Source: Diplonema papillatum (taxonomy: Eukaryota > Euglenozoa > Diplonemea > Diplonemida > Diplonemidae). From it: a DNA stretch of 64,000 nt. The notes below the pieces were generated by a model that worked only from the letters and a program-made list of their open reading frames with translations, had not been told where the DNA came from and searched no databases. The stretch covers positions 141,597 to 205,596 of the forward strand of contig JAPJBO010000381.1 of the NCBI GenBank assembly GCA_030068145.1. Direction: 5' to 3'. Position numbers and translations under genes: made by a program. Positions 26,050-58,638 of the stretch are shown here, in pieces (the first letter of the stretch is position 1; the number at the start of each line of letters is the position of its first letter).

Positions 26050-26173
26050 GACTGGCGTTCACTGTGTGCTGAAGAAGCATTTTTTTGGACTACCGCTCGG
26101 GAAGCAACCGGATACCGGCAGCCCCGCTGTATCAACATGGCTTGTACAGTGTCCCGCGCTCCCAAAAAAAAAA
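25170..26173 (+). mobile_element. RLE2: second, internally deleted RLE copy
   Basis: It is nearly identical to 18752-20160 of RLE1 but lacks about 410 bp (equivalent to about 19140-19548). It ends in the same 3' UTR and 10 A (26164-26173), immediately followed by 10 T that start element A. Confidence 0.85.
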
Positions 26174-26208: not shown

Positions 26209-26814
26209 GACAACGAAGCCTCAGCTGGCACTACCCCGGACCGAGTGGCCGAGCCCGACTGCCCTCACCAGCTGGATGCCAATGCACCGCCTTCGGCCGG
26301 ACGTCCCGAACCGCTTCTGCAGGAGCAACATGCGCCGTCAACGCCACCTTCTACCACTCCTCCGCCCCCCGATCAGCAACCTCCGTGCTCGCAGGGCCAA
26401 CCCGACAAGGACCGCCGCGCCAAGCCTCGTCGTCGCCCCCTTGCCGAACCCCAGACAAAGCCGACCTCCGAGGCACAAGACACCCCGTTGCCTCAGGCCG
26501 AGCCCCCTCACGCTGCAGCACCGCAATGTGGGAACCAAGCAACTGCGGCACCGGCCCATACCGCTCCCGCCCCGCGGGCCGTAGGGGGAGGACGCGGAGC
26601 CACGCGGATGGTGTACCCCCCACCCCGCTCCCACAGCGCGGACCTTCCACGTGCCAGGGGAGCCGGTCAACCCCCACCAAATGGTCCCCTCCCCCCTGAC
26701 ACTCTCTCAAGACCAGGGGCTACGCCTCTGCCCACGGGACCGTCGATACCAGACCACCTGGGCTTCGACGGGTCTCCCTCAGAAGGAAGCCCTCCGCTTC
26801 TTTCACAGCATTGA
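26209..26814 (+). CDS. Element A ORF1 fragment (proline-rich C-terminal part)
   Basis: About 201 codons remain, ending in TGA at 26812-26814. The C-terminus matches element B ORF1: PPPRSHSADLPRARGAGQPP, DGSPSEGSPPLLSQH. The rest is proline-rich and low in complexity. The N-terminal RNA-binding-like region seen in B is absent because the element is 5'-truncated. The frame continues without interruption after the TGA into ORF2. Confidence 0.75.
   Translation, partial: DNEASAGTTPDRVAEPDCPHQLDANAPPSAGRPEPLLQEQHAPSTPPSTTPPPPDQQPPCSQGQPDKDRRAKPRRRPLAEPQTKPTSEAQDTPLPQAEPPHAAAPQCGNQATAAPAHTAPAPRAVGGGRGATRMVYPPPRSHSADLPRARGAGQPPPNGPLPPDTLSRPGATPLPTGPSIPDHLGFDGSPSEGSPPLLSQH
26812..26814 (+). promoter_or_regulatory. 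In-frame UGA between ORF1 and ORF2 (candidate readthrough site), element A
   Basis: Context CAG CAT TGA GGG TTA CCC. I checked the 100 codons after it: there is no further stop and no ATG. The same arrangement occurs in element B at 36258. Readthrough is inferred from this conservation and is not shown. Confidence 0.6.
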
Positions 26815-29800
26815 GGGTTACCCCCGCGCCCGGGAGATCCCCCCCTCGGCGCCCCCCTCCTCGCCAGCTCAACCCCAGAGAGCGGCGCCCAAACCCTCCA
26901 AAATCCGGCACCTGCACCAGTCACCAACACCCGGAGACAGGCTCCCCCGGGACAACCCTCGGCTCCTCGCCGAGCCCAGCAGGCCGGCGTTCAACCACCG
27001 CGTAGCGCCGCACTCCCCCCAGCGGCCAATCGCAGACGTCCCGAGCGCGGTTGGGGCGAGCTCTCTACCCTGAAGTTCATCTCGTTCAACTGCAACTCCT
27101 TCTTCGCTCGCGAGAAGTTGTCTCGGGGGCTAGATAGCATCAGCCGAGGAATCGCCGCCTACATGCCGGACATTCTCCTCCTGCAGGAGACAAAGCTGTC
27201 GAGCAAGTCTCCTCCTCCAGTTCTCAACGGTTACAGGGTGTTTCGGCGGGACCGAGGTGGCCTAGGCGGTGGGGTCGCCACGTTTGTGAGGTCCAACCTG
27301 CACGTAAAAGAGATCCCTGTCCCCGCGGGATTATGTAATTCTACGACGGAATGCGTGGCAATCGAGATCACCCGCATCGGTCTCCCAGCACTGCAGGTCT
27401 ACAACGTATACCACCCACCGTCGAAATCCTCCCACACAAACCTCGACATGGAGCCCTTTCCGATGGACGACACCGTCGTCATCGCCGGTGACCTAAACGC
27501 CCACCACCCGGACTGGTCCCACGGGGCTATTAACGCATGCGGACGGAACCTGAAGGACTGGCTCGTCGAGGTGTCGGCAGTGGTTAGCAACAACCCCGCA
27601 GTCCACACCATGCCGCCGAGGCCGGGTATCAGAAACTCATCCCCGGATGTAGCCATCTCCTCCCGCATCCCCGGCTTCATACGCAACTGGAGGAGACTGG
27701 ACTCCTGGGAGTCCGACCACTACCCTGTCGCCTTCGAGGTTCCGAGGGGGTACAGGCAGCCTCGGCCCCCCAGGCTTACATGGTTCTCCTGGAAACGGGC
27801 AGACTGGGAAGAGATGATGCTTCGGTTGGATGAGGAGAGCGCGACCCTTCTCGCCAAAAGACCGGCCACCAACACCCAGTTCGCCAAACGCATTGCCTCC
27901 TGCTTCCGCCGTGCCATCCATGATTTTGTCCCGAAGTACACCCAGGGCCGTGCGTACAAGGCGTGGTGGACCCCTGAGCTCACCACCCTCGAACGTGAAA
28001 AAGCCGCCGCTTTCGCGGAGCTGCAGGCGGAGCCCGACTCCTCGGACAAGATCTGTGCACACCTCGAGAAGATATGCGAGTTCAAGGAGGCCGCCACGCA
28101 GGCCAAAACCTGCTACTGGGACAGGATAGCGGGCCGCATTAACAGGTGCACTGGCATTGCCCTCCTTTTCCGCCAGGTCCGCATGCTGGACGGTAGGCGC
28201 AACCACCTTTCTATCCCTCCGCTGCGGAACGGCGAAGGTTTCTGCGTCGAAGCCGAAGTCAAAGCCGAAATCCTCGGACGGCATCTCGAGTCCGTCTGTG
28301 GGGGCGCAAACACTGATCCCCCCCGCCGATGGGCTCCGAAAAATCGCCCGTCCGATGACGACGTTGGCTGTGGGCGTATAACCGAGGACGAGCTTGATCG
28401 TGCTCTCAAGGATCTCGACCCGAAGACATCCCTGGACCCCGACGGCATCTGCACCGAGTTCCTGTCCAGGCTGGATGGAGGCGCCAAGCAGCTGATCCTC
28501 GAGCTCCTGAACATCTCTTGGGGTGAAGGGTTTGTCCCGGACACCTGGCGTGATGCCCACGTCATACCTGTCGCGAAGCCAGGCAGAGACCACTCCCTCC
28601 CTGAGGGTTACCGCCCTATCTCTCTGACGAGCGTTACCTCCAAGCTGATGGAAGTGATCGTCAAGAACCGGCTGGTTTTCCTGACGGAGAACGAGGAAGT
28701 CACCCAGGTCCTACCTTTCTGCACTCGGCAGGGCGGCTTCCGTAAGCAGCGAGGTACTGAGGAGCAGCTTTACTCCGTCATGACCACGATCGACTGCGCG
28801 GTACCTACCCGGCGACGCGTCTGCCTCCTCTCGTTCGACCTGGCCAACGCCTTTGACACCGTCGACCACGCCCTCCTACTCGACGCTATGCAGAGTAAGG
28901 GAGTCCCCCCTAAGTTTCTCGTGTGGCTTGAGTCCTTCTTGAGGAACAGAAGGGCGGCTTTCAAGGTCGATGGGGCCACCGGAAGCAAGTTCCACCTGAA
29001 GCACGGCGTGCCCCAGGGTACCGTCCTCGGGCCGATACTCTTCTTGTATCACATCGACGGCCTCGGCACCTCACTGGAAGCTCTCAACAAGCGAATTGTT
29101 GAAGAGACCCAAGGGGGTTCCTGGATCACGTTCTCACTCTTCGCCGACGATGACGGCGTCGTAGTCTCTTCCCCAAGCCGCGCCCCACTTGAGAAGTACA
29201 CCCAAATGGTTGTGGACGTGGTCGAGGACTGGACGATCGAAGCCAAAATGCACCTGTCAAAGCTGAAGACGGAAGCAGTCTTGTTTCGGGATCCTGGTGC
29301 CCCCGAACCTGTACCTCTGAGGACGAGATTCAACGCCACAGCCGTCGACGTCACGGTGCCCGCCGATTACGCCGCGACGCTGAAGTCGAGATCGGCCTGG
29401 AAGTTCCTGGAGCCGGAGAAGGACTCGCCCTGGCACCAGCACCACGGCAAAATCATCATCTCGCTTGAAGTCGTGGAAGGCGGCCGCATGGTTACCATAC
29501 GCGTCGCCGATGGGCTGCGCTGGGTAGGCAAGACCAAACTTCTTGGCCTGACCATCGACTCGGAACTCACGTTCCACCACCACATGCAGCGTGTAGTCGA
29601 CAACTTCTCTCTGAAGATGAACTTCCTGCGGCACCTTTCCGGGAAATCGTTCGGTTGCAACACGTGCACGCTGCGCACTCTGTACCTGACGTACGTCCTA
29701 CCGACATACACGTACGCCCTGTCGGTCTACGGCCCGTACCTCCTTCGTTCCACATCTCCCCTGGTGGCAACACTTGAGCGGCTGCACAACCGTGCCCTTA

Positions 29801-31365
29801 TTCTCCTCCTCGGATGCAGGAAGAACACCTCCGAATTCTCAGCGCAACAAGAATCCGGGATCTTGCCGCTCCGTGCGATAGCAAGGCTCCGTATCGCCGC
29901 TTTGCGAGAGAGAATGCGGCGCCGCGGCACGCTCTGGCGAAAGGAGCTCGCCATGCACTCGACGATGAGGCGAGACTACGTTGACTTGTGCGAAAAGGCC
30001 GATACGGACGGGTGCAAGCGCGAGGAATTTGTTTTCAACCCGTTTGCCCCCTGGACGCCCAGCCCTAGGGTGTCTATAGTCGCCACCCTGCCAGGGAAGA
30101 AGGGCGACTCGCCTGCGGCCAAGAAGCGTATCGTCGTAGCCCGGCTGAATGAGCTTGACCCGACGGACTGCTCAGCCTGGGTGGACGGCTCGGTGCTCAA
30201 AGGTGAACCGCCGCCCCAGCCGCCGCCCTCGATAGCCGACAATTGGGACGAACGTCATCTCCCGTGGCTGAAGCGCTACAACGATAAGACGACATGGGGC
30301 GGGGCCGGACTGTACTTCGTGTTCGAGCCGTCTATCACCGACAGCCTGCGCAACGTCGCTGGTATGAAGCTCACCGCCGCCGGGGATCGGCGCACGACAA
30401 CCCGGTCGTTCCCGGTCGGGAAATACGCGCACAGCTACCGCGCGGAGCAGGTAGCCCTGTACTCGGCCCTGGTGTTCTACAGTCAGCATCTCGCGCCGAC
30501 GACTCGCCCGCTCCACATCCTCATCCTGAGCGACTCCCAATCGTTTCTCAAAACGTTGAGTGCCGGCCCGCATGCCCAAGTCGAGCCTCTCGCCATAGAG
30601 TGCTGGAAGATCCTGTCGGATCTGGAAGCAAGGGGTTATCTAGCCACCTTGCAGTTCGTCTACGGGCACTGCGGGCTTGAAGGCAACGACGTGGCGGACA
30701 ACCTCGCAAAAACTGCGGCCCTCGCACACCGTCAGGCTGCGGAAGACTCTTCCGCGATTCACCCTGAGCCCTACCCGCTGACCGTCGCTGATGCAATCTG
30801 CCGCTATCGACGGTACCTACGACTGGATAGCAGCGAATTAGGTGCCAAGGGTGCGTTCGAGCGTGCAGACGAGCACGGGAACATCTCGCCGTTCGCCCGT
30901 ATTGTTCACGGGCGGCCGATACCTCGACGCCGTCACCTCACGGCGCGGGCGGAGCGAGAGATTCGCCAGCTGAGGACCGGACACCACCGCCTGATCATGA
31001 CGCTTTATTCTGCGTCGTACGTATCCCTCGGTTCGGATGAGCGGCGGTGGCACTTCCTTCCGTGCCCGATCTGCGGGGCTCGCTCGCCCAGCCCCCTGCT
31101 GCACTTATTCGTGCACTGCCGAGCCTTCGTTACAGCTCCCCTCAGGACCACGCTGCGGCTTGAGGTAACAAGGCGGATAAAGAAGGACCCAGGCGGACCC
31201 ATCGACTCCCTCTGGTACTTCTTATTCGTCCACCCCGAGCTCGCCCTTTTTTACTTACAGAGAGCTGGCGCCCTTCCACCCTTCCAAGTCCTTGTGGCGT
31301 CCAGCCCTGACGATACCCCGGACACGACCGAAGAACACGAGTACGGGCTTGTGCCCATACTGTAG
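26815..31365 (+). CDS. Element A ORF2: AP endonuclease, reverse transcriptase, RNase H, CCHC
   Basis: The frame is the same as ORF1 and runs from directly after the UGA to 31365 (about 1516 codons). There is no ATG before the endonuclease; the first Met is in YMPDILLLQ. Domains: apurinic-type endonuclease at about 85-310 (SFNCNSFFAREK, LLQETKLSS, AGDLNAHHPDWS, SDHYPVAFE); reverse transcriptase at about 590-800 (SFDLANAFDTVDHALLL, GVPQGTVLGPILFLY, FADDDG); RNase H at about 1120-1300 (WVDGSVLKG, HSYRAEQVALYSA, ILSDSQSFLK, YGHCGLEGNDVADNLAK); and a zinc knuckle at about 1417 (CPICGARSPSPLLHLFVHC). This order is that of the Ingi/L1Tc clade. All catalytic residues that I can check are present, so ORF2 looks functional apart from how it is initiated. 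Confidence 0.9.
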   Translation, partial: GLPPRPGDPPLGAPLLASSTPESGAQTLQNPAPAPVTNTRRQAPPGQPSAPRRAQQAGVQPPRSAALPPAANRRRPERGWGELSTLKFISFNCNSFFAREKLSRGLDSISRGIAAYMPDILLLQETKLSSKSPPPVLNGYRVFRRDRGGLGGGVATFVRSNLHVKEIPVPAGLCNSTTECVAIEITRIGLPALQVYNVYHPPSKSSHTNLDMEPFPMDDTVVIAGDLNAHHPDWSHGAINACGRNLKDWLVEVSAVVSNNPAVHTMPPRPGIRNSSPDVAISSRIPGFIRNWRRLDSWESDHYPVAFEVPRGYRQPRPPRLTWFSWKRADWEEMMLRLDEESATLLAKRPATNTQFAKRIASCFRRAIHDFVPKYTQGRAYKAWWTPELTTLEREKAAAFAELQAEPDSSDKICAHLEKICEFKEAATQAKTCYWDRIAGRINRCTGIALLFRQVRMLDGRRNHLSIPPLRNGEGFCVEAEVKAEILGRHLESVCGGANTDPPRRWAPKNRPSDDDVGCGRITEDELDRALKDLDPKTSLDPDGICTEFLSRLDGGAKQLILELLNISWGEGFVPDTWRDAHVIPVAKPGRDHSLPEGYRPISLTSVTSKLMEVIVKNRLVFLTENEEVTQVLPFCTRQGGFRKQRGTEEQLYSVMTTIDCAVPTRRRVCLLSFDLANAFDTVDHALLLDAMQSKGVPPKFLVWLESFLRNRRAAFKVDGATGSKFHLKHGVPQGTVLGPILFLYHIDGLGTSLEALNKRIVEETQGGSWITFSLFADDDGVVVSSPSRAPLEKYTQMVVDVVEDWTIEAKMHLSKLKTEAVLFRDPGAPEPVPLRTRFNATAVDVTVPADYAATLKSRSAWKFLEPEKDSPWHQHHGKIIISLEVVEGGRMVTIRVADGLRWVGKTKLLGLTIDSELTFHHHMQRVVDNFSLKMNFLRHLSGKSFGCNTCTLRTLYLTYVLPTYTYALSVYGPYLLRSTSPLVATLERLHNRALILLLGCRKNTSEFSAQQESGILPLRAIARLRIAALRERMRRRGTLWRKELAMHSTMRRDYVDLCEKADTDGCKREEFVFNPFAPWTPSPRVSIVATLPGKKGDSPAAKKRIVVARLNELDPTDCSAWVDGSVLKGEPPPQPPPSIADNWDERHLPWLKRYNDKTTWGGAGLYFVFEPSITDSLRNVAGMKLTAAGDRRTTTRSFPVGKYAHSYRAEQVALYSALVFYSQHLAPTTRPLHILILSDSQSFLKTLSAGPHAQVEPLAIECWKILSDLEARGYLATLQFVYGHCGLEGNDVADNLAKTAALAHRQAAEDSSAIHPEPYPLTVADAICRYRRYLRLDSSELGAKGAFERADEHGNISPFARIVHGRPIPRRRHLTARAEREIRQLRTGHHRLIMTLYSASYVSLGSDERRWHFLPCPICGARSPSPLLHLFVHCRAFVTAPLRTTLRLEVTRRIKKDPGGPIDSLWYFLFVHPELALFYLQRAGALPPFQVLVASSPDDTPDTTEEHEYGLVPIL

Positions 31366-32640
31366 AGGCAAACCCGCGTGCTCTCCCGCTAACGGCGGTC
31401 GCAGTGTTCGCGGAACGCGGTACGCCGACGGCGCGACGCATGCTCGAAGCTGCGCCGCTGGAGATCCGCGTCCGCTCCGCGCACGCACAAGTTGGTTGGA
31501 GTTGGCTGTGCATTCGTCTCCTTTTTTTTTTTTGTTCTTTTGTATGCGTTGGCAAACCGCAGCCCCACATCAGGACAACAGTGAGTGCAGAACAAACTGT
31601 CACAACCACGCAGCCGCCAGCAGGGAGGCACCACACAGAACCCGGCTGAGTGACAGGAAGGGGAGAAGAAGGGTAAACCGCGGCACGGTACTGCACGGGG
31701 ACGCGCCTCGCATACAACGGACTCTCTTTCCCCCCCGCCCCTTCAATTACAAGTTGAAACGTGTGACCGCCTTCATATTGGCAAACGTTGGCAATACCAC
31801 AGTAGTGGTATAGCCCAAGAAACAGCCCCGGCTGCGCCAGGCACAGAGGCCAGAGGGAAAAAAGGGCAACCGTCTCGCGCAACAGCGCAGGCCGACACGC
31901 CCGCACAGCTGCTAACAGGGAAGCAACAGGAAAGCACCACACGGAACCCGGCTGGAAGGCCCCAAAGGGGAGTTGTCGGTGCTTTACCAAAGCTGCCCTT
32001 GGTCAAACGCCGCCCAGGCCACCCAAACAACCAACTATTCTGTACCAGCCGGAGCGGCTCGGTGGAGCATCACTGGATGCAGGACTGCAAGTCGCTGGCT
32101 CCCGACCAACGGAACGCAATCACCAACGCCACGGCAACGATCGACAACCGTACCCGCCACACAACGGGGAAGCTCGACCGCAAACAGCGCGGCACATAAC
32201 ACTCATTCCACGAAAACGTGTCACAGATTTTTGCTTCCTCATATCCGACATGTACAGGTCAAATATTGAGCAAATTCGGTTTTCGGGCTGCACCGGCAAG
32301 TCGTAGCGCAGGCGAACCCGAGCGACGTTACCGTCACCGTGGGGGCAAAAGGCCCGGCCGAGAGGCCGACGGCACAAACGCAGCCCAGGCGCACAACGGT
32401 CCTCGGGGACATGCCACGCTAGCGAAACACTTCTTTCTTTCTTTCTTTATTTCTTTACTTATTTCCGTCTTCTTTCTTATTTCCCTCGTCGACCCCCCCC
32501 TTCCTATCCCCTAACCTGTGGACCTGTCACTCGTGCGCGTGTCTCTTGGCGCAAACGGGCTAGTAACGCCTGACCGTTCCGGATGCTGCTCTTCTGAGCG
32601 GCTGAAGGAACGGTGCTTGTTTTTCATTCATTCATTCATT
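31366..32640 (+). other. Element A 3' UTR with (CATT)4 tail
   Basis: It is non-coding, with a T13 run near 31512 and a (TTTC)n stretch at about 32430-32475. The terminal 190 bp contain GGCGCAAACGGGCTAGTAAC and GCGGCTGAAGGAACGGTGC, then CATT repeats. A second copy of this 3' end is at 45149-45331. The tail type differs from the poly(A) tails of the other elements. Confidence 0.7.
32200..32230 (+). repeat. Solo terminal repeat of the 31-bp inverted-repeat element
   Basis: It matches the perfect 31-bp terminal repeat at 61880-61910 with two differences (CACTCATTCC and GAAAACGTG). It is preceded by ATAA (32196-32199), the same 4-bp target found at the intact element. I did not find the partner end nearby. 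Confidence 0.65.
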
Positions 32641-33263
32641 CTGGCAACTGGAGGCTGATGAGGGTGCTCGCTTCCCTCCCCCATATTCGTGTGCACGTGA
32701 TGTGGGTCCCGGCACACTGTGGTTTGGTCGGAAACGAGAAGGCGGACGACCTTGCGAAGCGCGGCGTCACTTCGGGCACGGCACTACAGGTCCTCGACTA
32801 CTGGGCTGCCTCCGACCTGCTGAAACAAGCGGTCAACTGCCCCGTGCTCACTCGGGACTACATGTCTCATCCGCATTACCGTTGCACTGGTGGTCACCGA
32901 CCTCTCGTGGACAATCGGTGGAATCGGCTCACTCAGGTAGCGGTTTCGCTGCTTCGAGTCAACCAGTCCCCAAGCGTTCACCTGAGAATGCAAGATTTCT
33001 GCGGGCACCTCTGCGCTGAGTCATTTGTCCCCGGACTGTCGGCATCCAATAAAGGGCACTGCTGGGCTTGTGGCTCCGGCTTCTCCTACGAACACCTATT
33101 CACAAAATGCCGGGTCACAGCCAGATACCTCGACCTTCTCCGTTGGCCGAGGCAGAAATGGACCTTGCGGGACATACTGGGTAGGTATCCCCTGACCGCT
33201 CTCCTGATTCTGCGCTTCCATCAGCTTTACGTTGGTGGATCCTTCTACAAACTTACTCAGTGA
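32641..33263 (+). pseudogene. Element D ORF2 C-terminal fragment (RNase H end and zinc knuckle)
   Basis: About 207 codons survive. RNase H end: HVMWVPAHCGLVGNEKADDL. Zinc knuckle: CWACGSGFSYEHLFTKC. The tail then runs RYLDLLRWPRQKWTLRDIL to the stop. The endonuclease, reverse transcriptase and most of RNase H are absent. The sequence differs clearly from A, B and C, so D is a separate family of the same type. Confidence 0.8.
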
Positions 33264-33796
33264 TTGGATATTTTACAATGTTCTCAGTGATCGGATTACT
33301 GTTAGTTCGCCGCTTGTACTCACGAAACGGATTCTGTTAATGGATTGGTCACAATCTGGTACTGTCTGAATGCTCCTTCTCCCCCTACGTTGTAGACTCA
33401 GTTCTGGGCAACACCCCTTCTCTGGCTGACCTAAGTTCTAGTCCCTCCACATGTCCTCCCAGCCTGCGTTCCATCAACTTTTCGTTGGTGGTCCTTCTAC
33501 ATAACACTAAGAGATTGAATTGATGATTGTCGCTGCCACTACAATGTTCGAATCTGATTCGACTGACGATCTTTACCGACAGACAATTTAGCAGCCTAAG
33601 GGTAAGCTATCCTAACAACGACTATCTGGCGATGGTGGCATGAGTCACGGTCGGAGTTCTACTCCATGCACAGGAAGAGTCCGTCCTTCTTCTTTCCTTG
33701 TTTGACAAAAGGAACAAAAGAACGACTTGCCCGTACAAGTAAATGCAGTTCTCGCCCCCTGCATGTCTTCCGTAGTTGCTTACTCAAAAAAAAAAA
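32641..33796 (+). mobile_element. Element D: 5'-truncated retrotransposon 3' fragment
   Basis: It starts exactly after the (CATT)4 tail of element A, with the end of an RNase H domain. It has a 0.5-kb 3' UTR and a poly(A) of 11 (33786-33796). Its last 100 bp recur inverted at 58662-58765, also ending in the homopolymer, which fixes the 3' end. Confidence 0.75.
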
Positions 33797-33887
33797 GGCT
33801 TTTTTTTTTGGCATTCGGGTGATCGGCGGCCGGGGCGCGCCCCTCTCGAGAGACCTCTCGCTTGGAGAGAATGGGTTCGAGGCCGGC
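33264..33887 (+). other. Element D 3' UTR, A11-GGC-T10 junction and element B 5' UTR
   Basis: D's UTR runs to the A-run at 33786-33796. GGC and T10 (33800-33809) follow. Element B's leader (33810-33887) contains the self-complementary CCCCTCTCGAGAGACCTCTCG. Confidence 0.6.
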
Positions 33888-36260
33888 ATGTCCCCGTCGA
33901 TCAGCATACTCCCGTCGGTTCTCGGTGGAGATCCATCGCGAGGCAGGGGTCGTGGCTCAAACGGCCGCCCGAGTGAACCATCGAGGCAGGTGGGCACCTC
34001 GCGAGGCGCGGGGGTCCAGGTCGTGTCCCACGAAGTATGCGACTCGAGGAGAAGGCGGCGCCGGGGAGGCGGCAGGGGACGTAAACCGTTAGAACGAGAC
34101 GCGAACGACTCCAGCGGTCCCGCCCCCTCTGCCCCCCGGGCCGCCGCACCTAGCTCTGATGACGGGCTGTATCCTGGTTGGGAAGCTCCGGAGGCCCGTT
34201 TCCGGGTCACCATCCTGGTGCACGACCTCTCCTGGAGCGAAGTGCAAGAACTCAAGCAGGCTCTGGTCCGTTCCCACCTGCACAAGTCCATTGATCGCCA
34301 GATCATCAATGGGATATGGGACGTGTCAGCGGACCGGGAGCTAGCCAAGCACGAACTGTACGTATCGGTGCGGGCGGCTTTCGCGGTCCCGAAGGATCAA
34401 GGGGAGAACGTTCTCCGGTCCAGTGGTTTTTCCACTGCCTTTTTCGAGCCCCTCTACGACGAAGCGAAATACCGCATCTTGTACCTGGGCGTGGACACGA
34501 TCGATGAGGCCCAGGAGCTCGCATCCCTCATTCCGGACCTACACAGGGGCCTCTCCTTCTGTCGCGGCACTTTTGGCATCCGCGTCAAGGCCGGGGACTA
34601 CAATCGCGCCAAGGCCCTACTCCCCCCCCTGCCCCCGCCAATCGGCTACTTCGAGGTGCAGGGGGTGCCGAGCCGCACCAATGGCGACCTGCTCCGGAGG
34701 AACCTTTGCGACCATGGCTGGGAGACAACCCCACTCTTCCGGACGCAGAAGGGCGGGCGTCACCTCACATGGATCGTCAAATCCGAGACGCTCCCCGGAA
34801 AGAACGTTCTTCTGACCGCCCAGGGCTTGACGCTTAAATTCAAGCGAATCCTCCGATGCCCCCTCGAACCTCTCGAGACTAGAGGGTCCCCCCCTCTCTC
34901 GGACGCATTCCGCGCCCCCGCCCCAGCTGCCCCCGCCGATAACGAGACCCCCCAGCTCCCGTCGCGTGCTGATCTCATCAAACAGCACGGACCCGCCCTG
35001 GCCGAGAAGATCCTCGCGGGTCTCCACCTCCTCGGCGATCGCTCTGGCCCAGCTCCTGCAGGTAAACCACTGGCCGGAGGTCTCACCATCGCCGCTGTGG
35101 ACCATCCCGAGGATGAGTCAGTCATGGACGTAGATGTTGCCGTCAGCGCGGAGGAAGAAGAAGACGCGGCCAGCGACACCCCCTCCGAACACCCCCCCCC
35201 TCAACCCGCAGACCCGCCATGTGCCCAACCGGACGCCCTTGCAGCCGCGGTCAGCCAGGTAATGGCCCTGTCGGAACAACTACGGTCCAACTACAAGGAC
35301 GCAGTAGCGAAGACAGAGACGGATCTCTGCTCTGGATTCCGCTCCATCACGGAGGGGATGAACGCGAAGTTCGACAACCTCGCAGCGGAAATCCGCGCAC
35401 AGAGTGTGGCACTCGCGAACACCCGCTCTGAGCTGTCCGCAGACATCCAAAGGCGTGGCACAGAGGCGGAGAACTCCCACCGTGAGCTGTCTGAAGCTGT
35501 GAAGCACCAGAGTGTCGCCTTAGAGCTGACACGGGACAAGCTGACAACGTTCGAGCACGACCGTGACCGCCGTTCTAAGAGACCCTCTGGGAGGGAGCGT
35601 GGCCGGTCCCTGGACCGCGGTGAAGCGCCCAGCCGAACAGACGCTGACTTGACGCATCAGTCGATGCCATCTGCGGGCCAGACTCCCCCAGCCCAGGAGA
35701 CTGTGCCGATCGAGGTGCAGCCGCAGCTGGAGAGCCAGACGACAGCTCCACCTACCCCGCCCCCCGTCCAACAACCCGTAAAACCCCCCCCTGCCCAACC
35801 CCGGACTGCCCGATCTGCCTTAAAGACCTCAAAGGGGCCCAGCACTAAAGACACGGCACAGCGCGCGGCTCGAGAGAGGTCGCAACAACGGGCACTTTCG
35901 GCTCGTCCCCCTGCCGTGACAAAGCCGTCCCCTGAAGCGCAGGACGCTCCAATGCCGCAGGCAGAGTCCCCCCAGGCCGCTGCAGCAGTGGCTCCCGCAC
36001 CGATCGCACCCGCTCCGAGGGCCGCTGGGCGAGGGCGCGGAGTGGAGTCTGTACGAATGGCATACCCACCTCCCCGCTCCCACAGCGCGGACCTTCCACG
36101 CGCCAGGGGGGCCGGGCAACCCCCTACCAAAGGTCTCCTCCCCTCCGACGCTCTCCCGGGGCCAGAGGCGACTCCACTGCCTACAGGAACAGCGTTACCG
36201 GAGCTGGACTTTGATGGGTCTCCCTCTGACGGAAGCCCCCCGCTTCTTTCGCAGCATTGA
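33888..36260 (+). CDS. Element B ORF1 (nucleic-acid-binding-like, coiled coil, Pro-rich)
   Basis: The ATG at 33888 (MSPSISILPSVLGG) is the first Met within the element; the open frame upstream belongs to element D's tail. The 790-residue product has an Arg/Gly-rich basic start (RRRRRRGGGRGRK); a folded region of about 220 residues (HDLSWSEVQELKQALVRS, YVSVRAAFAVPKDQGENV, YFEVQGVPSRTNGDLLRRN); an acidic linker; a helical segment likely to form a coiled coil (AEIRAQSVALANTRSELSAD); and a long proline/alanine-rich tail with PPPRSHSADLPRARGAGQPP. This fits the ORF1 role of RNA binding in non-LTR elements. It ends with TGA at 36258-36260, in frame with ORF2. Confidence 0.8.
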   Translation: MSPSISILPSVLGGDPSRGRGRGSNGRPSEPSRQVGTSRGAGVQVVSHEVCDSRRRRRRGGGRGRKPLERDANDSSGPAPSAPRAAAPSSDDGLYPGWEAPEARFRVTILVHDLSWSEVQELKQALVRSHLHKSIDRQIINGIWDVSADRELAKHELYVSVRAAFAVPKDQGENVLRSSGFSTAFFEPLYDEAKYRILYLGVDTIDEAQELASLIPDLHRGLSFCRGTFGIRVKAGDYNRAKALLPPLPPPIGYFEVQGVPSRTNGDLLRRNLCDHGWETTPLFRTQKGGRHLTWIVKSETLPGKNVLLTAQGLTLKFKRILRCPLEPLETRGSPPLSDAFRAPAPAAPADNETPQLPSRADLIKQHGPALAEKILAGLHLLGDRSGPAPAGKPLAGGLTIAAVDHPEDESVMDVDVAVSAEEEEDAASDTPSEHPPPQPADPPCAQPDALAAAVSQVMALSEQLRSNYKDAVAKTETDLCSGFRSITEGMNAKFDNLAAEIRAQSVALANTRSELSADIQRRGTEAENSHRELSEAVKHQSVALELTRDKLTTFEHDRDRRSKRPSGRERGRSLDRGEAPSRTDADLTHQSMPSAGQTPPAQETVPIEVQPQLESQTTAPPTPPPVQQPVKPPPAQPRTARSALKTSKGPSTKDTAQRAARERSQQRALSARPPAVTKPSPEAQDAPMPQAESPQAAAAVAPAPIAPAPRAAGRGRGVESVRMAYPPPRSHSADLPRARGAGQPPTKGLLPSDALPGPEATPLPTGTALPELDFDGSPSDGSPPLLSQH
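36258..36260 (+). promoter_or_regulatory. In-frame UGA between ORF1 and ORF2 (candidate readthrough site), element B
   Basis: Context CAG CAT TGA GGG CTA CCG, almost the same as element A at 26812. The 69 codons from here to the endonuclease start are open and lack ATG. The first Met (SLMECL) is well inside the endonuclease. Confidence 0.6.
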
Positions 36261-39200
36261 GGGCTACCGCCCCCACGCCCTGGGGAAACCCCCCCCGGCG
36301 CCCCACACCGCGCCAGCAAGAACCCAGTATGCGGCGCCCAAACCCCTCAGAACCACGCACCGGCGCCTGCCGCCGGCTCGGCCGCGCGCAGAGGACAGGT
36401 TCCTTCGGGGCGCAGCCAGCTTCCGGCGAGTGTCGATACGCCGAACCCCGAACGCACGCTCACCTTTGTGTCGTTCAATTGCCGGTCCTTCTGGGCGAGG
36501 GAGTACTTCCCCGGAGGTCTCGACGGTATCAGCCGCCTTGTCGACAGCTTCTTCCCGAACCTGCCGGACGTCATACTCCTGCAGGAGACTTGGCTCTCAA
36601 GCAAGTCCCTTCCCCCCCTCCTCAACGGTTACCAGACGTTCCGACGCGACCGCCCCGAAGGGCATGGAGGAGGCGTCCTGATTTTCGTGCGCACAAGTCT
36701 GCTAGCCACGGAAATCCGACCTCCGGTCTTTGGCGCAGACTCACTCATGGAGTGCCTCGCGGTAAGGATCACCCGCATCGGCCTTCCCCCACTGCGCGTC
36801 TACAACGTGTACCGCCCCCCGCGTGGCCACGCCACACTCTGCATGACGCCATTCCCGATGGACGACAACGTCATCATCGCCGGCGACCTTAACGCTCACC
36901 ATCCGGACTGGTCCACGGGGGCCGAGAACGTGGGCGGCCGGATCCTCCGAGACTGGCTCCTCGAGACGTCCGCCATCACCTGGAACGACCCGACGGTTTC
37001 CACAATGGTCCACCGCTCTCACGCCCGATACTCCTCGCCGGACGTGGTTATCTCCACCCCGACTCCAGGGAACATCCTCAACTGGAGACCTCTCGCTTCC
37101 TGGGGCTCCGACCACCTCCCAATCGCCTTCGAAGTACCTCGGGGGTACTCGCAGCCGCGCGTTCCCCGCCTCTCATGGTTTTCCTGGAGACGCGCTGATT
37201 GGGATGGTATGATGGAGTACCTTGATGAGGAGAGTTCTGCCCTGCTCGGGAAGCGGCCTGCCACGAACACGCAGTTCGCGAAGCGGGTCGCTTCGACGTT
37301 CCGCCGCGCGATCCACCAGTTCGTTCCGCGATATCGACCGGGACGACCTCAGAAAGATTGGTGGACACCGGAGCTCACCGTCCTGGAACGCCTCAAAAAA
37401 GCGGCCCTCTCTGACCTGCGCAGCGACCCTGACGCCCCGCAGGCCCAACGTGCATACTCCGACGCGGCGGCCGGTTTCACGCATGCAGCTAAGCTGGCGA
37501 AAGCTGCGCACTGGTGCTCCTTCGCCTCCCGCATCAATCGATGCACCGACATCGGCCTGCTCTTCCGGTTCGTCCGGAAGATCGACGGCCGTGCCCTACG
37601 CAGGGACATCCCCCCAATTCGGCACGGGGACACTTTTTGTGTCACAGCGGACGGGAAGACGGAACTGTTCGGCGACCACCTTCGTCGGGTGTGCGGCGGC
37701 CCGGCAACATCGACCACCTCTCCGCAGTGGGTACCGAGATGCCGACCCTCCTCCGACGACGCTGGCTGCGGGCCCATCACCGCTGCCGAACTCGACCGGG
37801 CCCTTAGCAACCTCGACGCGAAAACCTCCCTCGACCCAGATGGTCTCTGCTGCGAGTTCCTCCGCCGACTTACCGGCAGTGCAACGGACCTCGTTCTCGA
37901 GCTCCTGAACATCTCCTGGGAGGAGGGCTTTGTCCCTGACTCCTGGCACAACGCCCATGTCGTCCCCGTCCAGAAACCTGGCCGGGACCGTTCCCTGCCG
38001 GAAGGTTATCGACCGATTTCCCTCACCAGCATCATTTCCAAACTGATGGAAGTGATCGTGAAGAATCGACTCGAGTTCCTTACCGAGAGCCCCGACTACC
38101 CGCAAATCCTCCCCTTCTGCGCACGCCAGGGCGGCTTCCGCAAGGGACGAGGGACGGAGGAGCAGCTGTTTTCGGTCGTATCAGCCCTCGACTGGGCCAA
38201 GACCCGGCTTCAACACTTCTGCCTGCTCTCGTTCGACTTGGCGAACGCATTTGACACGGTCGATCACCAACGTCTCCTTTGCATTCTGGAGCGGAGAGGG
38301 ATCCCCGCGAAATTCCTGCGCTGGATTGAGGCCTTCCTACGCAACAGGAAAGCCGCGTACAAACTCGACGGAGCCACTGGTCGCTACTTCGACCTGAAGA
38401 CGGGCGTCCCCCAAGGAACAGTGCTCGGACCTCTCCTGTTCCTCTACTACATCGATGATCTCGGTACGGAGCTTGAACAACTCCGCTGCCACATCCACGA
38501 GGACAACGTTCTCGTTGTACGCCGATGACGATGGAGTAGCTGTCGAGGCTCGGACTTTCGCCGCCCTCGAGCGGTATACCCAAGATGTCGTCGACGTGGT
38601 GGAGCGCTGGACGGAGAACGCGCTGATGGTCCTCTCTAAAAGGAAGACCAAGGGTGTCCACTTTCTTGGAAGGAACGCGGTCCCCGGTCCCCCGCCGAAG
38701 ATTGTGTTCAAGTCGACGCAGCTGGACATCCCCGTCCCCGCTGAGGATGTCCGGCGACTGGTGTCGGAAGAGCGAAAGGTAGTGGGACTCGGGGCGCCAC
38801 ACGACGGCAAGACGGTGGTCAGCGTCGTACGTAAGGCCTCCGGTGGCACCCTGCTCAGGGTGGTGGAAGAGCTGCAGTGGGTCGAAAGCGTAAGGCTGCT
38901 CGGCCTAACCATCGACCGCGAGCTTACCTTCCACCCCCACCTCCGCCGGGTCATCGAGGTGTTCTCTCTGAGACTCAACTTCCTCCGGCACCTGGCCGGC
39001 AAGGACTACTGCTTCAACGGCACGATCCTCCGCACCCTCTATCTCACATACGTGCTCCCCACTTTCACGTACGCGCTCGGCATTTACGGACCTTACATCC
39101 TCTTCGCAGCCGGCCTTCTTGCAACACTCGGACGCCTCCATCGCCGTGCACTCGCCCTCATCCTGGGCTGCCGTAAAGGCATCTCCAATTTTGCCGCTCA

Positions 39201-42200
39201 ACAAGAGTCCGGCATCCTCCCTATCCGGTCCCTTGTTGAATACAAGATCGCGGCCCTCCGGGAGAGGCTGCGGCACAACAGGGCCCTTTGGACGCGCGAA
39301 CTATCACTCGACACGCGACTGAAGACGACGTACGACCGGGTCACAGTCAAGGCGGGCACAGACCAGTGTATCCGGCAGGCTCGTATTCCCAACCGTTTCG
39401 CCCCGTGGACTCCATGCCCCGGCGTCACGATCAACACCGCCCTGAAGGTGCGCAAGAATGCTGGCGCTGCTGAGAAGAAGCGAGCCGCAGAGGTACAACT
39501 CGCGACGCTCCCGCACCCACACTGCACCGCCTGGTCGGACGGCTCTGTTGTGAGCGGCAACCCTCCGCCGCCCTCCATTTGCGACGCCAACGCCAGTGCC
39601 ACCCTTCGTTCGTGGTTACGCAGCACCAACGACCGGTCTACCTGGGGTGGCTCCGGCTTGTACATTGAACTGGAGCCTTCGGTTCCCATAAAGGCAGACC
39701 ACGGCCTGGGTCAGCACCTGACCACTACTACGGACAACTGCCGCACTGTCGAAGCCGGATTCCCGGCCGGTCGTCACCCGCACAGCTACCGCGCCGAGGA
39801 GATGGCTCTCGTCATCTGCGTGAACGTCCTCAAGCGCCTGCTCCCTCTGACCACCACGCCCCTCAACATCCTCATCATCAGTGATTCGCAGTCGCTCCTG
39901 CAAACGCTGAGCCACGGCCCGCTCTGCCAGACGCAACCCGGGCCAATCCACATCTGGCAATCGCTGGCCGAACTCGAAGCGCGGGGCTACACCATCACCC
40001 TGCAGTTCGTTTTTGGCCATTGCGGTCTTGCCGGCAACGAGAGGGCTGACGGAATCGCCAGACGGGCCGCTGAGACATACATGCGGGAAGCGGTTGCGGC
40101 TATGGCGAGGAACCTCCCCCTCCCTTATGCGCCTAAAGTCTGCACCACGACCGTTAACGCCCGCCACCGTGCCGTCCTGTGGATGGAGAGCAGCGAAGCT
40201 GGAGCTCGGGAAGCCGTGAGTAGAGCCGCCCGCCTACAAAACCCGTCGTCTTTCTCGAGGTTGGTTTTCGGCCGCCGCATCCCACGACCCAAGCACCTCA
40301 CACCGCGGGCCGAAAGGGAAGTGCGGCAAATTCGCACCGGCCACCACCACCTCGTGATGACGATGTATGCTACCAACATAGCTGTCAGCCACAAGGTTGC
40401 CACATTGTGGCCCCATTTAGCCACAAAGTAGCCACAAACCTTGTGGCTACCTTTGTGGCTAATTATGCAAAATTTTGGTATCACGGAAAACCGCGTGGAA
40501 CTAGCTTTTTCGGCCAGAAAATGCATCTGAAACACAATTTCTGATGATTTTGACAGGTTTTAGGGCCAGCATTTTGGTGAGCTGCTTCACCCTGGGCTCG
40601 GCATCCCCTGGGGTACCATTGGTAAACGGTTTACTAAAACCCTACTGCTACTAAAGTAGTAGTAGGCATTATGCACACAGAATCGTGCATAATTCAGGTT
40701 GGCGAGAGTGACAGACCCGTTCTACTTGCAAAGCGCTTACCATTTCTGTCCTAAAACCCTCTGAGAAGGCCTCTCAACCAGCGACCGGCGCTCTCCGAGC
40801 CTCTTCAATGACCCCAGAGGAGGAGTGGGAGAGAGCGGCAACCAATACCGCCGCAGCCAATCAGATTTGAATGATGCTAGAAAGCTGCAAAGAAAAGTGT
40901 CAGATAATAGTCAGGAGCTGGCGGATGGTGACTGAGCTTGAGCTCCCTGCCGCGGGCGTGCGGCCCGTGCTGCCCGGCAGGCTGGGACCGGTATTGTCGG
41001 CAAGTCAGCCACCAGAAGCCATTTCCCTTGTGCCCTGGCTGGGGTGCTACAGGAGCCCGCGAGGAATTTCCAAGACGTGTGAGAGATTGCCCCCGCTACT
41101 TTTCTCGGATACTTTTTCATGGCTCCTTCTTGAACTCTTTCTGCCGTGTAGTTGCGCTCAACGGCCGCGCACTGCGCACTTTGCAAGCAAGCAAGCAAAC
41201 TCGCTGGTGACGGGGTAGCTTGCACACCGAGCAGAAGAGCTGTCGTAATTGTGAAATGCTCTGCCGTTTGCTGGGTCGTTGCTGTCCTCCTGCGTATCCC
41301 AGAATATCAGCGTGCTTTGTCGTCGTTACTAGTAACCTTAGACCACGGTTGTCACCACCTGCGTGGTTTGGTCCTTTGGCAGGAAAAGTTGGAGACTATG
41401 AACCCCGCAACTGAAACGGGTTTGCGGACAAGAGACCCTTTGAACTAAATTGATTCCTTGCCTGCTCCAAAACCTGTCAACAGAAGCATTGGCAGGTTCG
41501 TACTGACTGCTGTCTGAACTATCAACTTCGCTTTCGACGGGTTCGTCTTCCTCCGGTGCACTCTCCGACTCAAAATGTACTAGAATTATGGTATTAGCAT
41601 TAGTTTTGCGACCGTGTTGGCACGATGCAGCAGTTTGTTGTTGTTTTCTGAACTTTTCAAGCCTTGAATTACTGATAGAGTTGCCAACGTTGCCGCTGAC
41701 TCGCGGCTGAGGATACCGAGGCCAGGGCGAAGCAGCTTATCCAAATTCTGGCTCAAAACCCTGTCAAAATCGTCAGAAATTGTGTTTCAGATGCATTTTC
41801 TGGCCGAAAAAGCTAGTTTCACGTGGTTTTCCTGGGTATCAAAATTTTGCATAATTAGCCACAAAGGTAGCCACAAGGTTTGTGGCTACTTTGTGGCTCC
41901 CAATTAGCCACTAGTGGCTGTCTTGTGGCTGACAGCTATGCTACCAACTGGCCAACCCTCACGAGAGCAGACCGCAGGGAACCGCACCTCCCCTGTCCCA
42001 TGTGCGGCACGAGGTCGCTGGCCCCGCTCGTTCACCTCTTCATCGGCTGTGACGCCCCCGCTGCTCAGACCTCTCGGCTAGAAATGACGAACGGCCTCGA
42101 GGTCAGGAATCGTCTCGGTAGGAGGTCGCCGCCCGTGGACGCCATGGAGTTTCTCTGGGCCGTCCTGTTCGTGTTCCCGGAGCTCGCTCTCGCCTATCTG

Positions 42201-46778: not shown

Positions 46779-47410
46779 ACTTGGCTACTGAAGCAACGAA
46801 CGAACGGAGTCTCAGCTGGAAAGCTGGCGACCAGGTGGGAAACCAATCTAGATTGGCACCGTCCTCGTCATAACAAGGTTGTCATTGTATGCGTACACGT
46901 TTGTTCCGGCAACTTAGCCTTCTTTCGTCGGCTAGTCGGATCGGGGGTGTGAACGGTGGCTCAGGTCTGCACTGTGACTTTCGACAACGGCCCTGCCGTT
47001 ACTGCCATATTCTCGTACTTATGTGCAACGCGCATGCACGTATGCATCGAAGCATGTACACATTCAGCCGTGTACCATGTGTACATTCGCTCAGTCTCGC
47101 TAGTCAGTGCACAAGTCCCAGTGATAAGGGCTCGAACAGCAAGTTGTCAAGGCATTAGCGTAACAGGCTACAGAATAGGTCTAAGCCTACACTGTCTAGC
47201 TGCATCTGTCAGTCACGGGCGCTCCACCTGACCTACCCGGCCGTCACTAGTAAGGCCTACATGGGGGGATCAGTTTGCAGGAAGCCCCGACAATCGAATT
47301 CCTCCCCGTTTCCATTTTTCTTTCAGTATCAGTTCAGTTTCTAACCCGACGTTAAATCCGGCCCAGTGAAGCCGTTGCCTACGGGCGTCGACATGTTAAA
47401 AAAAAAAAAA

Positions 47411-52852: not shown

Positions 52853-55800
52853 TCAGGCCCAGTCACTCGCGCTATCATCAGAGGGGAGCGCATCGGCAAA
52901 ACTCAGCCCGCCTGCCGCCACTGACTCAAGGTCGGGCGTGTCCGGTCTGTCACCAGGCAACGTTTCGTCGACGTGCCCAGATACAACCTCGCTCGCCTCC
53001 GAGTCAACAGGTTCTCTGCTGAAGCCCTCTGGCTGGCTACTCGCTGCGACACTCACGAGTGCACTTATCTGCGAGGTGACTGTCTGAGAGCTCCAGACTG
53101 ACCTACCGTCGCATATGCAGTCGCTTGTGGGCAGCGATTCCCCGTGGCCGGACTTTACCACGGCGAAACGGGGTATCAGCCCCGTGTCCTGCAAGTACTC
53201 AAGCGCCATTTCAGGGTGCTTGAACAGGACGTGCCACAGCTTGTCGGCGTTTGTTGCGCCCGACGGGAGGCGTGCCGCCGGATCGGGCCCTTTTCCTCTG
53301 GCCGCTTTAGCCCACAAACTCATGCGGTGAGCTTGGCTCGAGGCTTCGACACATCCGATGAACATATGCTCCAGGACGTTCGGGTGGTAGCTTTTGCAGA
53401 ACGCGCAGCTCCGATAAGCCCGCCTCCTCTCAAGCATATCCAGGTCCGCATAATCTGCAGCGTACATCGTCATTACGAGCGGGTGGTGTCCGGTCCGGAT
53501 CTGCCGGATCTCCCGCTCCGCCCGCACCGTAAGGTGGCAAGGGCGCTTGACGCTTCGCCCGTCTACAATTCTGGCGTATGGCATTGAGACGCGGTGTCGC
53601 TCAGCCCTGATGAACGCCGCGCGTGCCATCGGCTCGGTTGAGGCGAGGGTCGTATACGCTTTATACCGTGTGACTGCATCTTCTGCCGCTAACGGGGGCT
53701 CCCCGGGTGCGTTGCCTCTCGTCACCTCTCTGAAATGGTGGAAGGCCGCACGTTTCGCGAGGCTGTCAGTTACCTCGTTGCCGCGTAGGCCACAGTGCCC
53801 GTACACGAACTGCAGCGTTGTTGTGTAGCCCTTCTGGGAGATTGCGCTGAGCGCAGACCAGATGTACACGAGCAGCGGTTGCTTCTGCACTTGCGGGCCA
53901 CCAGCCAGTAGACGAAGGAGCGACTGCGAGTCAGACAGGATGAGGATCCGCCGGGATTCGGGTGTGGGTGCGAGGATTTCCAATAGCGCCCTCATGGCTG
54001 CGGCCAGCGCTAGCGTCTCGGCTTTGAGGCTGGAAGGGAAACGGCCAGCTGTGTGGGCGAGGTGTGTCGACCGAAGGTTGCCAAGTTGACGGATCGAGTA
54101 GTCATGGCCGTTGGCGATGGTGATCGTTGGTGCACACTCTATCAGGGCGGCAGCCCCACCCCAGGTTCTGGTGTCTGCGTACTGTGTGGTCCATGGTTGC
54201 ATGATGCGTTCAATGCGAGATCCAGGAGGTGGCGCCGGTGGTTGTTCTCTTAGTACGGACCCATCAGTCCACACTGTGCAGTCGGGCACGGGAAGCTTGA
54301 GGAGGTATTGTTCGACGATCCGTTTCTTCTCAGCCGGACTACGCTTTTTCCCCTCAGGCAGGAAGGGATTGATATCGACTGCCGGTCGAGGGAGCCAAGG
54401 TGCGAACGGGTTGAACGTGAGGCGTTCCCTCGGCTGCTTGTGGGTTCCGGACTTCACCGTCAGCTCTGCGTACCGACGATTCAGCGTCGACGGCCATCCG
54501 AAGGTGTCTGGCCACAGGTGCTTGCGGGGCATCATTCTCTCGCACAGGCTGCCGAGGCGCACGTCAATGTATGTTGCAATTGGGGGGATTCCGGCCTCGC
54601 GTGTTGCCACAAAATCAGATATGCCTTTACGGCAGCCAAGGACGTGAGCGATCGTGTTTGTATGAAGGCGTTCGAGGATGCCAATATATTTACTCGCCGA
54701 GAGTAACAGAAAGGGCCCGTAGACTGACAAGCAGTAAGTGACCGAGGGGATCACATACGTCAGATACATGCTACGCAGTGTAGCAGTGCTGCACCCCCAC
54801 GCTTTTCCAGACAGGTGGCGTAGTAGGTTAGCTCTCTGCGACATGCGCTTGACGGCACGTTCAGCATGCGGGTGGAACGTGAGCTCATCGTCAATTATTA
54901 GGCCAAGAAATTTTGTCTGCTTGACCCAGCGCACGTTCACCGTCAGCTCGAGGATGACCCTTCGGTCGCGCGACTCTCTGTGGACGTCCAGTATGTCCTG
55001 GTTGGAGAATCCACTGCGGCCGTCGACCGTTTCAATGTGCTTCCCGTCGTGTTCAGCATATTCGGGTTCGTTGGCCACGAAGTTGTGGTTCCAGCGCGTT
55101 ATCCACGCAGGCAGCTGCGCACCGGGAACACTGATGGTCTGCCTCGTACCCATAAAGCGCAATGGCGGCGGGACTGTCCTTTTGTCCCGCGGGCATAGGA
55201 AGATGGCTTCGGTTTTGTGATGAGCCAGTCGCATTTTAGCTTTCGTCACCCATTCTTCAACCGCATCAACCACTTTCTGCGCCTTAGTCCCCAGTTCTGC
55301 TACCGAGGCCGCTGAGACGACCACCCCCACGTCATCAGCAAAAAGTGAAGGGGTTATGGTGTTGGGACCGGCAGTCGTGCTCCCGAGAGAGCAGCGGAGA
55401 TCTTCAAGCTTCAGGCCCAACCCGTCAATACAGAACAGGAATAATAATGGGCCGAGGACTGTGCCCTGGGGGACGCCACGCCCCAAGGAAACCTTCTTCC
55501 CAATCGTGCCGTCGATTTTGTATGCGGCTGTTCGTCCCTGCAGAAAAGCGTGCAACCATTGCAAGTAACGTGGTGGTACTCCACGCTTTTCCATCGCATT
55601 GAGCAGGAAGTCGTGGTCTACCGTGTCGAATGCGTTTGCAAGGTCAAACGACAGTAGGCACGAGAAATCTCCTCTACTGCGAGCCTGGTCCATGGCTGTG
55701 ACTATGCTCATGGCCTGCTCTTCCGTGCCGCGTCCTTTTCGGAATCCGCCCTGTGAGTCACAAAAGGGTCGGACGGATTTGTCCATCGGGTTATCGGTGG

Positions 55801-57694: not shown

Positions 57695-58172
57695 ACGGGT
57701 GTGGCGATTCGCAGCGCCTCGGCGTTGGGGTCTGCGCTCTCACTGACGAGTATGGCTGGAACTTCTGGCGCTGAATCGCGGCCGTTTCCGACTCGTCGCA
57801 TTTGTTTCCCGGTTTACACATCTCTCCGTCACCCACTGCCTGTTTCTCCACAACCTGCGAGGATACAGACTGCTCGGTCGCAGCGACAGGTACGTGCGGC
57901 TCCCGCACTATGCCTTGGGGGCAGTGTGTCGCGTCCAACGTGCAGACCGCCTGCTGTTCGTCCCGGTTTTCACTACAGTGGTTTGTCGGCTGGTACGAGG
58001 GGCCCGGGGGGGCCTCGGTGGCTTGCGCTACGTGGGTCATAGTTCGAGGGTCGTCGATACTCGTTCCAGGACAGACTGGTGGTCCCCGAGGCCGGCAAGC
58101 AGCTGAGTCCCTCTCCCTTCGTGGCGCTGACTCCGCGTCGCTTGGGGGGGTTTCCCCCCGGCGCCCTTCTGC
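57588..58172 (-). CDS. Element C ORF1-like frame
   Basis: About 194 codons within the element; the frame runs through the A-tail of C' upstream. It is rich in Pro, Ser, Arg and Glu, with no recognised domain and no good initiator Met at the element's edge, so it may be the C-terminal part of a truncated ORF1. It overlaps the ORF2 frame by about 150 nt, in a frame shifted by one base, and stops at 57588. Confidence 0.45.
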   Translation of the reverse strand, partial: AEGRRGETPPSDAESAPRRERDSAACRPRGPPVCPGTSIDDPRTMTHVAQATEAPPGPSYQPTNHCSENRDEQQAVCTLDATHCPQGIVREPHVPVAATEQSVSSQVVEKQAVGDGEMCKPGNKCDESETAAIQRQKFQPYSSVRAQTPTPRRCESPHPCGRGAPSTPTGRLPGGSRASPHTGKGRNMPHSFRS

Positions 58173-58638
58173 TTTTTTTTTTTTTTTTGTTGACGCCCGC
58201 TCGGCGGGAACGGCTTTACTGGGCCGTGTTACTGTCAAGTAACATGCCACGTAGGTTAGACACAGTGTGCCGCACAAGGCACAGGCTAGGTTGAGGTGGG
58301 CTAGGTTGCTTGTGGTAGGCTAGGGGGGTGCTTTACCGCGTCTATTGTTTCAGTTTAGCGCAATTATTTCTTTCCCAGGGTTGCAGTGGGTCGTTCCCGA
58401 ACTCTCTGGGGTTGTCATTGTTTCATTTCTCATATGCTGTTGTTTCGGGTGTTTTTCCTTCAAGTTGCACGGCCGCAAAGGCTCGTGCTAGGTTGGTGCT
58501 TCTTATCTGATTGTATTCAGGACGAAGGGGGGGGCGGTGGCAGGAGTCGCTAACAACTAATTGCACACATCAGTTGACGGTCAAATGCGTTAGTTATTGG
58601 TGCACAGGTCATGGAGTACTTAGGGTTTAACAGCAGAA
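58173..58638 (-). mobile_element. C': 5'-truncated copy of element C (3' UTR only)
   Basis: 58189-58638 is almost identical to 51807-52258, differing only at a few bases next to the tail, and carries its own A16 (as T 58173-58188). Loss of homology at 52258/58638 is the 5' truncation point. The two copies are in the same orientation, head to tail. Confidence 0.88.

Follow-up and report, generated by a model that had tools for sequence, protein, structure and literature searches.

Two non-LTR retrotransposons (LINEs) of Diplonema papillatum, A and B, lie in the 64,000-nucleotide stretch of DNA analysed here (the window) and keep their two ORFs in one frame, separated by a single UGA. We propose, with a probability of roughly three in four, that recoding yields ORF2 fused to the end of ORF1. 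In A and B the event would be readthrough of the UGA; in related families, among them a third element of the window, C, it would be a +1 frameshift. The majority of ribosomes would terminate at the ORF1 UGA and release the ORF1 protein; in a minority a near-cognate tRNA would decode the UGA and the ribosome would move on into ORF2, as in gag-pol readthrough. ORF2, with its endonuclease, reverse transcriptase (RT) and RNase H, would then be a C-terminal extension of ORF1. The core signal is probably CAR CAY UGA GGG, to which a stem-loop 12-16 nt further on may contribute; in the related families the same fusion would arise by a +1 frameshift at UUU_CGN shortly upstream of the ORF1 stop. The layout, its conservation, the codon-level selection between A and B and the shift motif are seen in the sequences; from these we infer the decoding event, its efficiency, the amino acid inserted and the role of the hairpin. 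How is ORF2 of a two-ORF LINE translated? This is an old and partly open question, to which the answers known to us are reinitiation (SART1, and as proposed for L1) or a single ORF. Stop readthrough, or a one-base forward slip, is a rarely described way for LINEs to set the amount of enzyme. In the present case ten junction types in one genome split cleanly into a readthrough layout and a +1 frameshift layout, each with a short signal. If the proposal is true, there are LINEs with a gag-pol-like control of enzyme dose, whose recoding signals are exchanged as modules.

The features of the three elements in the window are as follows.
26230..26811, plus strand: 3' part of the ORF1 of A, in a copy 5'-truncated near 26230; homology to other A copies ends 582 nt before the UGA, and codon-position bias against B marks it as coding
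26812..26814, plus strand: in-frame UGA ending the ORF1 of A, in the context CAG CAT TGA GGG (sequence and copy survey)
26815..31365, plus strand: ORF2 frame of A, with linker, APE-type endonuclease, RT and a sub-threshold RNase H, ending at TAG (frames, Pfam)
26826..26852, plus strand: possible stem-loop of A, 12 nt after the UGA (shuffle p 0.149, not significant alone)
33606..36257, plus strand: ORF1 frame of B, stop to stop, an open frame of 884 codons
36258..36260, plus strand: in-frame UGA ending the ORF1 of B, in the context CAG CAT TGA GGG (sequence and copy survey)
36261..40431, plus strand: ORF2 of B, with linker, endonuclease and RT, interrupted, the second open part being 38398-40431 (frames, Pfam)
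36276..36300, plus strand: possible stem-loop of B, 16 nt after the UGA (shuffle p 0.204, not significant alone)
52853..57739, minus strand: ORF2 frame of C, 1,628 aa, +1 relative to the ORF1 of C (frames, RT search, Pfam)
57588..58319, minus strand: end of the ORF1 of C, 243 codons open, with the stop TAG at 57588-57590 (frames)
57594..57599, minus strand: proposed +1 shift site UUU_CGU of C, three codons before the ORF1 stop (match to the D-type 30-mer at G000:C381:199179-199208)

An earlier note on this DNA had read both UGAs as the sole interruption between ORFs that share a frame, and most of that description holds. The UGA positions and their context are as it gave them. The stop-to-stop frames 26209-26814 and 26815-31365 of A, and 33606-36260 and 36261-38528 of B, are in register. 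From the UGA to the Asn-Cys motif of the endonuclease there is neither stop nor Met over 90 codons in A and 71 codons in B, and in both elements the first Met of ORF2 falls inside the endonuclease. Position 26209, where the interval given in the note begins, is not the start of ORF1; the A copy of the window is a 5'-truncated one that begins near 26230, about 582 nt upstream of its UGA. ORF1 is longer in other A copies: those at L001, L002 and L012, which were translated, remain open to the edge of the stretch retrieved, over 577 codons at L001. For B, the first ATG of the ORF1 frame (33666) probably lies in flanking DNA, and 33888 would be a likelier start. Pr77 or a 5' HDV-like ribozyme is a mark of Ingi clade LINEs; a search of 33780-34080 at the 5' end of B (301 nt, E up to 5) gave no ribozyme match. 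In the window copy of B the ORF2 frame breaks near 38.4-38.5 kb; an open frame of 1,509 aa is found in at least five other B copies among the matches scored. In Pfam searches all three elements of the window match endonuclease and RT, and A and C also show RNase H below its curated cut-off (19.1 and 25.3 versus 25.8). A and C thus have the succession expected of an Ingi clade LINE, with an APE-type endonuclease first, then RT, then RNase H, and on this domain order they are putative members of the clade.

Open frames are weak evidence on their own here, because the region is very C-rich; at the A junction the other two frames are open as well, for 162 aa and about 100 aa. The strong evidence for the junction, in our reading of these sequences, is conservation between families. 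Chance opening of a frame in C-rich DNA was considered as a full explanation and is ruled out by the codon-position bias together with a stop context common to diverged families.

Is the UGA a peculiarity of the two copies in the window? The assembly searched comprises 271,365,524 bases in 2,910 contigs. The best 40 of 63 candidates were scored for a DNA query from the A junction, and the best 40 of 61 for one from the B junction; of these last 40, 27 are copies of A and 13 are copies or fragments of B. TGA stands at the junction in 59 of the 60 loci L001-L060, and the remaining locus, L042, is a B fragment without the junction; these loci partly overlap, as the A copies from the B query repeat those from the A query. 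A pattern search that left the stop as NNN and allowed at most one mismatch gave 126 sites for the A/B/F junction (the reversed-pattern controls for A/B/F gave 2 and 2), with TGA in all 100 listed, and 43 sites for the junction of family E (control 0), 42 with TGA and one with TTA. The sole TTA site sits in a 5'-truncated E copy. The earlier note had named a sense codon, or several stops, in most copies as the finding that would speak against it; what is found is TGA in 142 of the 143 sites listed, from 169 in all. Since the copies of one family hardly differ from each other, the weight of these counts is small next to that of the comparison between families.

That comparison is the more telling one. 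One in-frame UGA in the context CAR CAY UGA GGG is found in four of the ten junction types read, those of families A, B, E and F, and the claim that the layout persists despite divergence is borne out, as the synonymous sites of the endonuclease are heavily diverged between the four (pS 0.55-0.84). Between A and B, the 102 codons of ORF1 before the UGA differ at codon positions one, two and three 16, 9 and 46 times (pN/pS 0.27), the 65 linker codons after it 21, 20 and 31 times (pN/pS 0.51), and 163 codons of the endonuclease 41, 41 and 84 times (pN/pS 0.40). By this comparison both sides of the UGA look translated in the shared frame. The linker signal appears to fade beyond A and B: pN/pS is 0.71 for A-F and B-F and about 0.9 for pairs with E (0.92 the highest), and such distant pairs would say little on selection in the linker. 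The linkers of E and its relative E2 differ by an indel of 9 nt; E2 is left out of the upstream alignment because the E2 copy is 5'-truncated. In the four UGA types, the part of ORF1 that was read holds no UUU_CGN. A point against readthrough is that the context has neither the CUA nor the CGG triplet of classic UGA readthrough.

In the other six junction types (C/D, C', G, H, I and J) ORF2 lies in the +1 frame; none of the ten types read uses the -1 frame. The further families came from RT searches with C (best 143 of 3,248 candidates) and A (best 150 of 2,788), and from an endonuclease search with I (best 150 of 669 candidates scored). RT identity to A is 92% for G, 71% for B, and 70% for F and H; identity to C is 74% for D, 66% for E and about 59% for F. 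In all six +1 types UUU_CGN occurs in the ORF1 frame 3-17 codons before the ORF1 stop (D 3, C' 7, G 13, H 17, I 11, J 12), and a +1 shift at TTT CGN leads into the ORF2 frame; the stop itself is TAG, TAA or TGA. Outside the last 20 codons TTT CGN was seen three times in 8,240 codon pairs examined, and H has a second TTT CGN 75 codons before its stop. Codon permutation places the motif within the last 20 codons by chance in 0.2-1.5% of cases, depending on the type. The ORF1s of G and H, of I and J, and of D and C' seem to be related by descent, which would leave at least three independent cases, and the larger chance value of each pair, multiplied, gives about 5e-7. The motif was first noticed in D and C', then in G, H and I; for J it was predicted in writing ahead of fetching the sequence, and it is there. 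TTT is kept at the shift site in 29 of 29 D-type, 23 of 23 G and 29 of 29 H sites; for the I-type there are 26 sites, from a pattern in which TTT was fixed and two mismatches were allowed. Families or copies that break the rule may exist, as complete reading outside A and B covered a handful of junctions in each family.

Are the junctions bound to the ORF2 they precede? Element C of the window has a D-type junction, with the same 30-mer, yet its RT is 99% identical to that of C' and 74% to that of D. At five loci (L071, L082, L083, L086, L087) an I-type ORF1 end is joined to the F linker, and the F endonuclease follows wherever the stretch reaches, while L084, L085 and L088 carry the I-type junction with I's own ORF2. 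Thus the same ORF2 follows a UGA in family F and a UUU_CGN site in the chimera. We think it fairly probable that this group of diplonemid LINEs sets its ORF1:ORF2 ratio by interchangeable recoding junctions, UGA-GGG or UUU_CGN, which would move with ORF1 and be exchanged when recombination falls on the border of ORF1 and ORF2 (F acquiring the I-type, C' the D-type), so that related ORF2s have different signals. The exchange of modules itself is something we infer from these junction sequences.

The search for RNA structure 3' of the UGA, proposed in the earlier note, gave a hairpin in A, B, E and F, but a weak one statistically. Its best start lies at +12 in A, +16 in B, +15 in E and +15 in F. 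The shuffle p values are those listed above for A and B, 0.095 for E and 0.025 for F (Fisher 0.014), and an equally stable hairpin occurs at 22% (A), 21% (B), 1.4% (E) and 17% (F) of nearby codon positions. Energy z-scores over +9 to +56 are -0.24 for A, -2.40 for B, -1.48 for E and -3.40 for F, and in E2 no hairpin is evident by the same score (0.06). In the outer stems the sequence varies and pairing holds in each family; the most stable fold of B differs from the shared hairpin. Readthrough structures are described as usually starting about 8 nt away (PMC3542737). The modelled hairpin is suggestive at most.

Could ribosomes instead terminate at the UGA and reinitiate at an adjacent non-AUG codon, so that ORF2 is a separate protein? 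The earlier note offered this alongside readthrough. Termination-reinitiation has been reported or proposed for SART1 and L1, in SART1 with structure downstream of the stop (PMC5972666), and the conserved context and possible 3' hairpin of the Diplonema junctions would fit as well. The F chimera even has TAA A ATG at its junction, which we considered as a sign of reinitiation and dropped: the AUG is missing in the ORF1 parent, family I, where ACG stands in its place, and the parent's ORF1 end and the chimera junction both carry UUU_CGC. A, B and F have no AUG at or near the stop, and the +1 shift motif preserved in six related types is not required for reinitiation. Nor does non-AUG reinitiation account for the pairing seen across the ten types, of a UGA with an ORF2 in frame 0 and of UUU_CGN with an ORF2 in +1. 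We regard it as unlikely, and the fusion by readthrough is the part of the earlier note's proposal favoured by the near-universal TGA and the six UUU_CGN types. An ordinary two-protein LINE, in which ORF2 is read from an internal AUG or from a shorter trans-spliced mRNA and C-rich sequence gives the shared frame by chance, would be compatible with the openness of the other frames at the A junction. AUGs near the junction in E, C', I and the F chimera would also suit it. The linkers of A, B, F, D, G, H, I and J have no AUG, and those of E and C' have one each, 33 and 10 codons after the stop. The E linker AUG is missing from E2, the AUG upstream of the I shift site has no counterpart in J, and overall these AUGs are not kept in the relatives E2, D, J and I. 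With the first Met of A and B inside the endonuclease, and no ORF2 in the -1 frame among the ten types, we give this reading hardly any weight.

A fusion might also be made without recoding, if cis- or trans-splicing or RNA editing removed the UGA from the mRNA. A 17-mer of the spliced leader has 677 matches in the genome versus 0 for the reversed control, so that spliced-leader sequence is abundant, and a 38-base sequence at L075 matches the Diplonema spliced leader. Introns are reported in Diplonema (PMC10161547). LINE copies derive from element RNA, however, so that most should have lost a UGA that is removed before translation; the near-universal TGA in young copies, at 142 of the 143 sites listed, argues against this, as does the codon structure preserved on both sides of the UGA between A and B, and we consider such removal very improbable. 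Finally, the UGA is conserved as though coding, and might be a sense codon, for selenocysteine or under a reassigned or ambiguous code. A stop-to-stop frame is without TGA by construction, and the point is that the entire ORF2s of A (1,516 codons) and C (1,628) are open without one, with TGG used 29 and 31 times; UGA is therefore not a common sense codon here. The ORF1s of the +1 types end at TGA as well as at TAG and TAA. Among the curated Rfam families, no SECIS match was found in the window at the gathering score, nor in 31360-32400 at E up to 5. A sense-codon UGA is thus very improbable.

How does recoding of the kind proposed compare with known systems? The earlier note knew of no Ingi-clade element described in this way, and none was found in the open-licence literature searched, but similar LINEs have been predicted in Paramecium (PMC5405496). 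There ORF2 is predicted to be expressed by same-frame readthrough in Group 3, and by +1 frameshift or reinitiation in Groups 1-2, so that both layouts occur in one genome. The Paramecium elements differ in having a ciliate host and a clade of their own, and the remark in PMC5405496 is made from consensus sequences and names no motif, whereas the ten junction types of Diplonema are united by a stop context or by a known shift motif. Since recoded LINEs have already been predicted in Paramecium, the Diplonema case is a variant of that kind. Trypanosomatid INGI elements share the order APE-type endonuclease, RT, RNase H (PMC12278014); the main text of that paper mentions no ORF1, stop codon or readthrough, whereas A and B have two ORFs and a junction that is probably recoded. 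In their treatment of frameshifting and reinitiation, two reviews (PMC5009743, PMC5972666) say that the HeT-A gag needs a frameshift, cover TART, SART1 and L1 also, and describe no LINE with UGA readthrough. The Candida LTR element Tca2 is a caution by analogy for the readthrough predicted in A and B: readthrough of its gag stop was proposed, and a later reporter study found none (PMC7175516).

Among viruses, enamoviruses appear with UGA-GGG in a table of readthrough contexts (PMC3542737, Table 5), and the extension is likewise in frame; the product there is a virus coat protein, and in PEMV1 a long-distance RNA interaction drives readthrough (PMC9553062). Gammaretroviral gag-pol resembles A and B in its in-frame stop between gag-like and polymerase ORFs and the G after the stop, and differs in using UAG-G and a compact pseudoknot, and in being an LTR retrovirus (PMC3542737, Table 5). 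UUU_CGN is an established shift motif in influenza A PA-X and a proposed one in plant amalgaviruses, where overlapping ORFs are likewise joined in the +1 frame, and the D-type site UCC_UUU_CGU is as in PA-X (PMC5052127). Those are RNA viruses, whereas the Diplonema motif occurs in LINE families of one genome; one scan with the RT of A found no relatives in viral contigs. The D. papillatum genome is described as carrying many transposable elements, and fragments of 28S that lie scattered (PMC10161547), and the window itself also holds a paraflagellar rod gene and pieces of 28S.

A chimeric LINE family, in which the end of ORF1 comes from family I (one of the families with ORF2 in the +1 frame) while the linker and ORF2 come from family F (one of those with a single in-frame UGA between the ORFs), occurs in at least five genomic places, with the breakpoint at the ORF1-ORF2 border. 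The loci that carry the chimera are L071, L082, L083, L086 and L087; for comparison, L084, L085 and L088 carry family I's own ORF2. At locus L074 (contig C785, reverse complement) an F copy is 5'-truncated, beginning shortly before the UGA, and is preceded by an antisense piece of spliced leader, possibly a 5' inversion.

Further features of the window:
9565-9735, large-subunit rRNA match
13546-17130, minus strand, long frame, SAP-containing by eye
17897-20038, LINE-like repeat, restriction-enzyme-like endonuclease by protein inspection
20541-21171, tandem array, unit about 204 bp
21514-23589, minus strand, long frame, BED finger/hAT-like by eye
47345-49942, LINE-like repeat, RT by Pfam, restriction-enzyme-like endonuclease by protein inspection
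60202-61673, tandem array, unit about 204 bp, orientation opposite to 20541-21171
62706-64000, large-subunit rRNA match

Judged from the protein sequence, the two LINE-like repeats probably belong to the LINEs that have a restriction-enzyme-like endonuclease, Pfam support being limited to the RT of the one at 47345-49942. The same repeat is also present as a partial copy at about 25167-26171, immediately upstream of element A, a LINE in the window. The two minus-strand frames look, by eye, like putative transposase-type proteins, and the two arrays are related to each other. One of the rRNA matches is a small fragment, like the scattered 28S fragments described for Diplonema (PMC10161547).
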